Origin: Chitinophagales bacterium
GTDB lineage: Bacteria; Bacteroidota; Bacteroidia; Chitinophagales; JADIYW01
DNA length: 11,168 bases
NCBI GenBank assembly: GCA_020848315.1
Contig: JADLAH010000215.1
Span: 1 to 11,168 of the forward strand
Direction: 5' to 3'
Shown: positions 276 to 3,876 of the stretch, one piece after another
How the letters are laid out: each line of letters opens with the position of its first letter
Position numbering within the stretch: the stretch's first letter is position 1
Position numbers and translations under genes: made by a program
Notes under the pieces: model-generated
What the model saw: the letters and a program-made list of their open reading frames with translations, nothing else
What the model was told of the DNA's origin: nothing
Databases searched by the model: none

Positions 276-300
276 TCGTGCCACGATTATCGTGGCACGA
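276..300. repeat. REP palindrome, family 1, copy D
   Basis: This is a perfect 25-bp palindrome with left arm TCGTGCCACGA (276-286), loop TTA (287-289) and right arm TCGTGGCACGA (290-300). It shares the 25-nt size, the 11-3-11 layout and the GCCACGA/TCGTGGC core with four other copies around the RAYT gene. It lies just upstream of the leftmost gene, where a -33 element would be expected. Confidence 0.9.
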
Positions 301-1283: not shown

Positions 1284-2630
<1,347 letters not shown>

Positions 2631-2639
2631 GGTTACGCT

Positions 2640-2664
2640 TCCTGCCACGATGTTCGTGGCAGGA
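2640..2664. repeat. REP palindrome, family 1, copy E (accC leader)
   Basis: The arms TCCTGCCACGA (2640-2650) and TCGTGGCAGGA (2654-2664) enclose loop TGT. The third arm position is C pairing with G, where copy D has G pairing with C and copies B and C have A pairing with T, so pairing is kept while the sequence changes. It ends 9 bases before the accC ATG. Its AGGA end overlaps the AGGAAG tract that could serve as accC's ribosome site. Confidence 0.9.
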
Positions 2665-2766
2665 TAATTTTTGAGTTAAACGATATTTTGTTATGCAAAA
2701 TAAAAAATTAACACCATATTTTATGGAAAATCACCCGAATATGCATCTTATAGGTAAAAAGATTGC

Positions 2767-3366
2767 ATGCGGTTTGAAAAAGGACAACTGTATCACGTTT
2801 ACAACAGAGGAAACAATAAACAGCCAATATTCTTTAGAGATGAGAATTACCTTTATTTCTTGAGAAAGATAAGAAAGTTAGTTTTGCCAAACTGTGAGTT
2901 GTTAGCTTATTGCCTGATGCCTAATCATTTTCATTTTTTGATGTATGCAGATGAGAGAACGGTGGCTGTTGATGATAAGGGTAGAAATGTCTTTAGTGAA
3001 GCCATCCGTAAGCTATTAAGTCAATACACGAAAGCTGTAAATATTCAGGAAAACAGAACTTCTTCCTTGTTCCAGCAGAATACAAACGCTAAGTTGGTGG
3101 GTGGTTTATCGTGGCACGAGCATCGTGCCACGAAGACGGTTTCATGCCACGATGCTCGTGGCATGATTGTTCAGGACGACGCGATAAACTGCTTCGTATA
3201 TATCCACAAAAACCCAATGGAAATGACAAACAATAATTTATCAAAATGGATATTTAGTTCTTATTTAGACTATGCCGGACTCCGAAATGGGACATTGTGC
3301 AATAAAGAACTTGCATACTCACTGTTGGGCTTTCACGCGGATGAATTTCTAAAAATGGTTGAATAA
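2767..3366 (+). CDS. REP-associated tyrosine transposase (RAYT, Y1/HUH family)
   Basis: RAYTs are single-copy relatives of IS200/IS605 TnpA that bind and cleave REP hairpins as single-stranded DNA through a tyrosine. The product has 199 residues. The opening QLYHVYNRGNN is typical. The HUH motif is MPNHFHFLMY, with metal-binding H54 and H56. The next conserved blocks are SSLFQQNTNAK (99-109) and YIHKNP, where Y145 is the likely nucleophile by analogy with other RAYTs. FSSYLDYAGLRNGTLCNKE closes the domain. Residues 115-123 and 126-133 (SWHEHRATK and SCHDARGM) are encoded by two REP palindromes. They lengthen the loop between the FQQNT block and YIHKNP beyond what I remember for relatives. The frame is intact, so the protein may still be active. 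The gene has no partner and is convergent with accB and divergent from accC. No clear promoter is visible. Confidence 0.93.
   Translation: MRFEKGQLYHVYNRGNNKQPIFFRDENYLYFLRKIRKLVLPNCELLAYCLMPNHFHFLMYADERTVAVDDKGRNVFSEAIRKLLSQYTKAVNIQENRTSSLFQQNTNAKLVGGLSWHEHRATKTVSCHDARGMIVQDDAINCFVYIHKNPMEMTNNNLSKWIFSSYLDYAGLRNGTLCNKELAYSLLGFHADEFLKMVE
3109..3133. repeat. REP palindrome, family 1, copy A (inside RAYT)
   Basis: The arms TCGTGGCACGA (3109-3119) and TCGTGCCACGA (3123-3133) enclose loop GCA. The copy lies wholly inside the RAYT coding region, starts at the first base of codon 115 and is read as SWHEHRATK. Relative to the other copies a G/C pair inside the arm is inverted, with pairing kept. Confidence 0.92.
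3142..3166. repeat. REP palindrome, family 1, copy B (inside RAYT)
   Basis: The arms TCATGCCACGA (3142-3152) and TCGTGGCATGA (3156-3166) enclose loop TGC. It is the exact reverse complement of copy C. It starts 33 bases after copy A, in the same codon phase (first base of codon 126), and is read as SCHDARGM. By loop sequence A and B are oppositely oriented, like a paired BIME unit. Confidence 0.92.
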
Positions 3367-3381
3367 TTTTTGTTGGGAAAA

Positions 3382-3406
3382 TCATGCCACGAGCATCGTG
3401 GCATGA
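3382..3406. repeat. REP palindrome, family 1, copy C (between RAYT and accB)
   Basis: The arms TCATGCCACGA (3382-3392) and TCGTGGCATGA (3396-3406) enclose loop GCA. It lies between the two convergent stop codons, 15 bases after the RAYT stop and 2 bases past the accB stop. It is well placed to act as a shared mRNA 3'-end hairpin. No T-tract follows on the accB strand. Confidence 0.92.
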
Positions 3407-3408
3407 GA

Positions 3409-3876
3409 TTAAGCCGGTTCCACCAGAAACAGCGGCTGATCGTATTCTACGGCCTGTGCATTGTCCACCATGACTTTCACTACTTTGCCGGATACTTCGC
3501 TCTGGATTTCGTTGAACAGTTTCATGGCTTCAATGATGCAGAGTACATCGCCTTTTTTCACTTTGTCGCCTACTTTTACAAAAGGCTCTTTGCCTTCGCC
3601 CGCGGCGCGGTAAAAGGTGCCTATCATCGGTGCTTTGATAGTATGGAAATTACCCGCAGGTGCGGCTGCCTCCTCATTTTTTGCCGGTGCAGCTGTTGGC
3701 GCGGCAGCCGGTGCCGGTGCAGCAGCTGGCGCAACTCCTGCGGCTATTGCAGGTGCTGCCGGCAGAAAGTCGCGGTGACGCAGTGTGATCTTGAAATCAC
3801 CTTCCTGTACTTTTATTTCTCCCAGATTGTTGTCATTCAGCAGTTGAATGAGCTTCTTTATTTGAGCGATGTCCAT
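3409..3876 (-). CDS. accB: Biotin carboxyl carrier protein of acetyl-CoA carboxylase
   Basis: AccB carries the biotin that AccC carboxylates and that the carboxyltransferase AccAD then uses to make malonyl-CoA. The product has 155 residues. Residues 1-35 form the short N-terminal region (MDIAQIKKLIQLL and KITLRH). Residues 39-74 are an alanine/proline-rich flexible linker. Residues 77-155 are the biotinyl domain, with APMIGTFYR (82-90) and EAMKLFNEIQ, where K119 is the biotinylation site. The APMIGTFYR thumb region and the linker identify AccB rather than another biotin-carrier protein. A terminator separates it from efp upstream, and TATATTTG (3881-3888) precedes the ATG by 4 bases, so it likely has its own promoter. 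Its usual partner accC is displaced by the RAYT insertion. Confidence 0.97.
   Translation of the reverse strand: MDIAQIKKLIQLLNDNNLGEIKVQEGDFKITLRHRDFLPAAPAIAAGVAPAAAPAPAAAPTAAPAKNEEAAAPAGNFHTIKAPMIGTFYRAAGEGKEPFVKVGDKVKKGDVLCIIEAMKLFNEIQSEVSGKVVKVMVDNAQAVEYDQPLFLVEPA

Follow-up and report, generated by a model that had tools for sequence, protein, structure and literature searches.

Within its own coding sequence, a transposase gene of the RAYT (TnpA_REP-like) class from a Chitinophagales bacterium carries two perfect hairpins, translated in frame, of the same family as the hairpins found on both sides of the gene (2640-2664 and 3382-3406); relative to near relatives of the protein, these in-gene hairpins are an insertion. 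The explanation that we favour, with a probability of roughly 60%, is repeated self-insertion of the RAYT's own hairpins into tolerant loops, with continuing turnover. The stretch of DNA analysed, hereafter the window, comprises 11,168 nt of contig JADLAH010000215.1 (GCA_020848315.1) and belongs to an incomplete genome bin of 2.2 Mb in 352 contigs. In the region 2630-3411 of the window, the RAYT element lies between two genes on the opposite strand that we take, from their sequences, to be accB and accC. The features needed in what follows are these:

276..300, no strand assigned: hairpin of the dispersed subtype, loop TTA/TAA, outside the RAYT locus
2640..2664, no strand assigned: upstream flanking hairpin, loop TGT, 9 bp away from the start codon of accC (2630, other strand)
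2767..3366, + strand: RAYT/TnpA_REP-like transposase gene, 199 aa, with HuH motif NHFH at residues 53-56 and Y145 in YIHKNP
3109..3133, no strand assigned: in-gene hairpin A, TCGTGGCACGAGCATCGTGCCACGA, perfect 11-bp stem, loop GCA, encoding SWHEHRATK (115-123)
3142..3166, no strand assigned: in-gene hairpin B, TCATGCCACGATGCTCGTGGCATGA, perfect 11-bp stem, loop TGC, encoding SCHDARGMI (126-134)
3382..3406, no strand assigned: downstream flanking hairpin, loop GCA, 15 bp past the RAYT stop codon, 2 bp from that of accB

The RAYT gene and its hairpins

The window protein has the conserved order of HuH motif and single catalytic tyrosine seen in Y1 HuH transposases, as well as the TnpA_REP fold; across 41 aligned rows, H54-F55-H56 is invariant and Y145 nearly so. 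The NCBI RAYT family model NF047646 matches it with an E value of 2.4e-8 and 34 bits, against a model cut-off of 80, and a Pfam search returned no match for it at 1e-3. Its family membership suggests that the protein is active and would act on the in-gene and flanking hairpins. A promoter scan found one candidate versus 2.3 in shuffles, the upstream hairpin is terminator-like on the + strand (one found versus 0.5 in shuffles), and no Rfam match reached the gathering score. In five loci that belong to three other genera of the family, only 5-14 bp separate accB from accC between aligned parts. In six genus mates accB is followed by other sequence and accC is absent from the next 1.5 kb examined; in the genus mates G004 and G005 it lies further along the same contig. 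Because accC does not directly follow accB in the six genus mates, no clean empty allele (an accB/accC site free of the RAYT element) was found among these and the loci of other genera.

An earlier note, made from the letters of the window, had proposed that two REPs lie in frame inside the transposase gene, that their starts are 33 bases apart, each on the first base of a codon, and that they are translated as SWHEHRATK and SCHDARGM. All of this was borne out, the complete unit of copy B being one residue longer, so that both copies, each with a perfect 11-bp stem and a 3-nt loop, together code for residues 115-134. They are separated by 8 nt and their loops, GCA and TGC, face in opposite directions, as in a BIME; the opposite orientation that had been claimed thus stands, but it is read from the loop only, because the arms are nearly symmetric. 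Over 27 nt, copy B is the downstream flanking hairpin (3382-3406) exactly inverted; at one stem position copy A has a G-C pair in place of the C-G shared by the other 13 aligned genomic copies. A core pattern, composed after both copies were known, occurs at five sites in the window versus 0.01 expected from 200 shuffles. The segment that holds the two copies folds better than 200 of 200 shuffles, with z scores of -5.5 as RNA and -7.6 as DNA.

Across the bin there are 14 hairpin sites, namely 13 exact cores plus copy A. A search allowing up to three mismatches gave 22 sites per strand versus one in the control, and the eight with two or three mismatches were left out as likely chance in view of that control count. 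Of the 14 sites counted in this bin, which is incomplete at 2.2 Mb, only the four at the RAYT gene have its loop type (GCA/ACA); in the other ten, among them the one at 276-300, the loop is TAA or its complement. Outside the RAYT gene there are 12 copies, and no clear case of one within a gene was seen among them, as judged by eye and without annotation: the frames that overlap them are no longer than 142 aa or contain the hairpin within about ten codons of their start. The only in-gene copies found are those in the cognate transposase gene. The stems stay perfect through paired changes at two of 11 positions, and there is no broken cell in five distinct rows; in a covariation test of this small size, 61 of 500 shuffles had as many pairs changed on both sides, and one of 500 attained the cell and score values. 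The inverted pair does not recur elsewhere in the incomplete bin, where the nearest other pair of the 14 sites is 340 bp apart. By eye, no GTAG foot was seen next to the hairpins, GTGG being present inside the stem, and the hairpin core was absent from the viral contigs searched.

Two further repeats were noticed in the window. Positions 313-345 and 1245-1277 form an inverted repeat pair (33 nt, 91%), each arm with a GGTTGGTG...CCAACC hairpin, that brackets a lipoprotein-like ORF of 203 aa on the - strand (608-1219), and GACTCTGCTGAGAAAGTA is an exact direct repeat of 18 nt at 410-427 and 583-600.

The inserted linker and its fate in relatives

The two hairpins fill the linker between FQQNTNAK and CF.YIH, which counts 32 residues in the window protein. 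In seven relatives that have no unit it counts 10 (P0031, P0048) or 12 (P0029, P0030, P0036, P0042, P0100). With one unit it measures 18-21 in five of six relatives (29 in P0020), and with two units 30-32 (34 in P0019, one of whose units is degraded); 12 further rows gave no linker length, as the pattern did not match. Residues of about 112-136, which the earlier note had asked to be aligned, are thus an insertion when compared with near relatives. Its remark that relatives have a much shorter link holds for near relatives without a unit but not throughout: by a looser measure, on which the window protein scores 35, P0034 and P0057 reach 30-31 without a unit and distant RAYT loci without a hairpin at this place range from 12 to 45. 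Linker length by itself consequently proves little, the place being variable in length anyway, and it is the palindromes and the comparison with near relatives that make the case for insertion.

By eye, each of the nearest proteins (P0001-P0028) has one or two units or a remnant, versus none of P0029-P0120. Had distant homologues carried the same residues without the palindromes, this would have been ordinary protein sequence; at the protein level no such homologue appeared, and the units of the clade are mostly compatible with a hairpin. In a tree made with the linker removed where the pattern matched, and with seven of P0001-P0028 omitted as near-duplicates or fragments, the window protein falls in a clade of 24 rows (support 100/99), 22 of which have a unit; the two unit-free members, P0031 and P0048, sit on long branches and their position is unsure. 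The 98% identical proteins P0002 (lgn, ena) and P0003 (jgi) have the same two-unit link as the window protein with a few residues changed.

The structural setting suggests why such an insertion could be borne. In an AlphaFold model with a mean pLDDT of 87.5, only residues 116-133 fall below 50, and they sit between a strand (107-113) and the helix (137-148) that contains Y145. The insert is hence the only segment predicted to be disordered, a loop between strand 4 and the tyrosine helix, and the HuH site (53-56) and Y145 lie in the confident core of the model, as the earlier note had envisaged when it asked whether a surface loop would leave both intact. In a model of the hairpin-free P0031 made from that protein's own alignment, no residue falls below 50, and a strand (107-110) passes into a helix (114-130). 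The loop is therefore predicted to tolerate the insert.

Is the hairpin maintained as DNA in these relatives, or only as inherited peptide? Searches for DNA of the close relatives (genome contigs, viral contigs, plasmids, sampled genomes) yielded no full-length match above 56% identity, the genome-contig search having used exact window-derived patterns that may miss relatives, so the persistence of the hairpins as DNA is judged here from protein sequence. In the window protein and 21 relatives, 25 of 37 units could be coded by a perfect 11-bp hairpin, and 30 of 37 with at most one broken pair, versus 0.12% and 2.5%, respectively, of 3,336 control windows outside the linker. Part of this compatibility is inherited likeness, because units were picked by their resemblance to the window motif and several of the proteins are near-identical. 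Among unit types with changed arm residues, eight of 20 are compatible where random change would give 2.85 (P 0.003), a value that overstates the weight of the result because three of the eight share one replacement (R-to-H) and shared ancestry is ignored. Hairpins also decay, since 12 of the 37 units cannot form a perfect hairpin, including one unit each in P0002 and P0004. Unit B of P0003 reads CHEHRG instead of CHDARG, exactly what an inverted loop (the other strand) would encode, which suggests a loop flip or an exchange with the downstream copy. All in all, the hairpin seems to be kept as DNA across the clade, with decay, and the occurrence of units in all of P0001-P0028 suggests that they are longer-lived than a pure passenger would imply. 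As a separate observation, the C-terminal tails of P0010 and P0025 (HATRIVA, CHDYRAT) look as though a hairpin downstream of the gene had come to be translated once the stop codon was lost.

In-gene hairpins among other RAYT genes and in published systems

A survey of RAYT genes, in which 139 matching frames were reduced to 133 distinct ones after two partial pieces and duplicates had been dropped, found a flanking palindrome (arms of at least 9 bp, within 400 bp) in 70 of 133 and an in-gene hairpin (arms of at least 11 bp) in 31, versus 1.1 expected from shuffled genes. The 34 in-gene hairpins concentrate in the loop after HuH, with 25 cases, or 26 if L151 is included (a partial protein without landmarks, listed as 'after Y', whose hairpin at residue 78 fits the loop after HuH). 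Two lie before HuH, three in the loop before Y (the two of the window and one in L048), and the remainder after Y. All three codon frames are used (12, 9 and 13), and frame-breaking insertions are under-counted because the survey needed open frames of at least 100 aa. Own-flank matches of 80% or better were obtained for half of the hairpins (17 of 34), versus 0.76 expected from the flanks of other loci, the other 17, including that of L048 at 73%, falling below this level. On a quick tree, the presence of an in-gene hairpin requires at least 23 state changes, a number that may be inflated because 49 of 130 inner branches are weak and in which gains and losses are indistinguishable; the nearest survey relatives of the window (L017, L049, L063 and L051) have none.

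Two surveyed genomes with an in-gene hairpin also have most of their matching sites at the RAYT gene, three of four in G057 (RAYT L048), where sites with one mismatch are weak given a control count of 3, and two of three in G013 (RAYT L047). Locus L111 has a pair of RAYT genes whose cognate hairpins differ, and each gene contains hairpins of its own kind. At L111:750-3060 (G402), these two genes flank a cas1-like gene, near cas2 and CRISPR-like repeats, the names of both cas genes being our presumption from sequence. Two other peculiarities of the hairpins were recorded: their arms are often near-palindromic themselves, as in TCGTGSCACGA of the window (among arms of at least 11 bp in survey loci L017-L152 and the window, 56 of 124, versus 6.5 expected from shuffled arms), and in L038 a perfect palindrome, with arms of 46 bp around a 3-nt loop, follows closely downstream of the RAYT gene, at about 609-703 counted from the gene start.

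The phenomenon of in-gene REPs is already published. In the part of the text available to us, Quentin et al. (2018; PMC6006769) describe REPs inserted in frame into tnpA_REP genes of TnpAY1 subclass 2.4, a property that they call unique to it, and place its variable insertion between strand 3 and helix C; for subclass 2.6, that part mentions flanking structures only. Most of the surveyed in-gene hairpins share this subclass 2.4 loop. The window differs in loop, clade and persistence: its insertion lies between strand 107-113 and helix 137-148, it consists of an inverted pair, and the motifs of its clade look nearer to subclass 2.6. The latter is defined by NH[LIV]H, YIH[QN]NP and an SS extension in Bacteroidetes, and the window protein, placed by motifs and not by tree, is one residue off in each of the first two (NHFH, YIHKNP) and has S164-S165. 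Because the same text says only that insertions are 'generally' between HuH and Y, a case like that of the window may already be among them; no insertion in the loop before Y was found in the literature searched, the main texts of which were available in part. Rickettsia palindromic elements and intragenic REPs (PMC2229807, PMC3733652, as far as their accessible text goes) are likewise small palindromic repeats translated in frame inside genes, but they occur in many unrelated genes, whereas the in-gene copies of the window were found only in the cognate transposase. From the TnpA_REP/RAYT of E. coli (PDB 4er8), to which the window protein is 20% identical in the alignment, the system differs by hairpins without a visible GTAG foot and by the extra low-confidence segment.

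Origin and meaning of the in-gene hairpins

How did these hairpins enter the gene, and what keeps them there? An assembly artefact or chance deserves almost no credence: the window does come from a fragmented bin of 352 contigs, but the two-unit link shared by P0002 and P0003 led to the rejection of assembly error, and the 0.01 sites expected led to that of a chance origin. It is improbable, too, that the peptide was what selection saw, with CH[DE]xRG as a functional motif (a metal or DNA contact, for instance) and the DNA palindrome as incidental. Cys-His, Asp/Glu and Arg-Gly are largely conserved in the clade, as this would require; however, the hairpin DNA is perfectly palindromic and recurs unchanged in a flanking copy that is non-coding, the 37 units differ in the codon across the loop (H, F, N, A, Y and L), the survey hairpins fall in every codon frame, and the segment is modelled at low confidence. 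A better, if still rather doubtful, candidate, in line with the self-targeting or autoregulation suggested by the earlier note, is that the in-gene hairpins were selected as a cis-acting control site, the enzyme binding its own gene or mRNA, or the hairpins pausing or destabilising the transcript, and so limiting its own level. The 31 genes with in-gene hairpins, half of these cognate to their own flanks, the units throughout P0001-P0028, the strong RNA folding of the segment and the excess of compatible altered units would fit such a role; against it count the 102 of 133 RAYT genes that do without an in-gene hairpin (arms of at least 11 bp), the 12 of 37 clade units that cannot be perfect hairpins, and the shared ancestry and shared R-to-H change behind the P value.

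Under repeated self-insertion, the preferred reading, the gene of a RAYT (a HuH/single-tyrosine hairpin endonuclease) bounded by its own hairpins would have received copies of these in frame in the loop that joins strand 4 to the tyrosine helix, where extra residues would do little harm. Their likely source would be the RAYT's own single-strand cutting and rejoining at nearby hairpins, and we infer that the RAYT itself made the insertions; a template switch at hairpins during replication would be an equally adequate source. Turnover after insertion would proceed by loop inversion, by exchange with flanking copies and by loss or gain of units, and it is to such continuing turnover that we propose to ascribe the in-gene hairpins staying cognate while their sequence drifts.

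A broader and more tentative idea, which we regard as possible but not probable, is that in this bacterial class RAYT genes would time and again take up their own hairpin within the reading frame and retain it because it acts as a resident recognition site, so that enzyme, gene and target would form one self-regulating unit, drifting together, the in-gene copy being flipped or re-templated from the flanks. RAYT genes that carry their hairpin in either of two loops, gained or lost many times on the tree, lend themselves to a direct assay by silent recoding. The findings add a second loop and another clade to what has been published on in-gene REPs, and they bear on the spread of REP hairpins and on the persistence of a single-copy transposase next to them.
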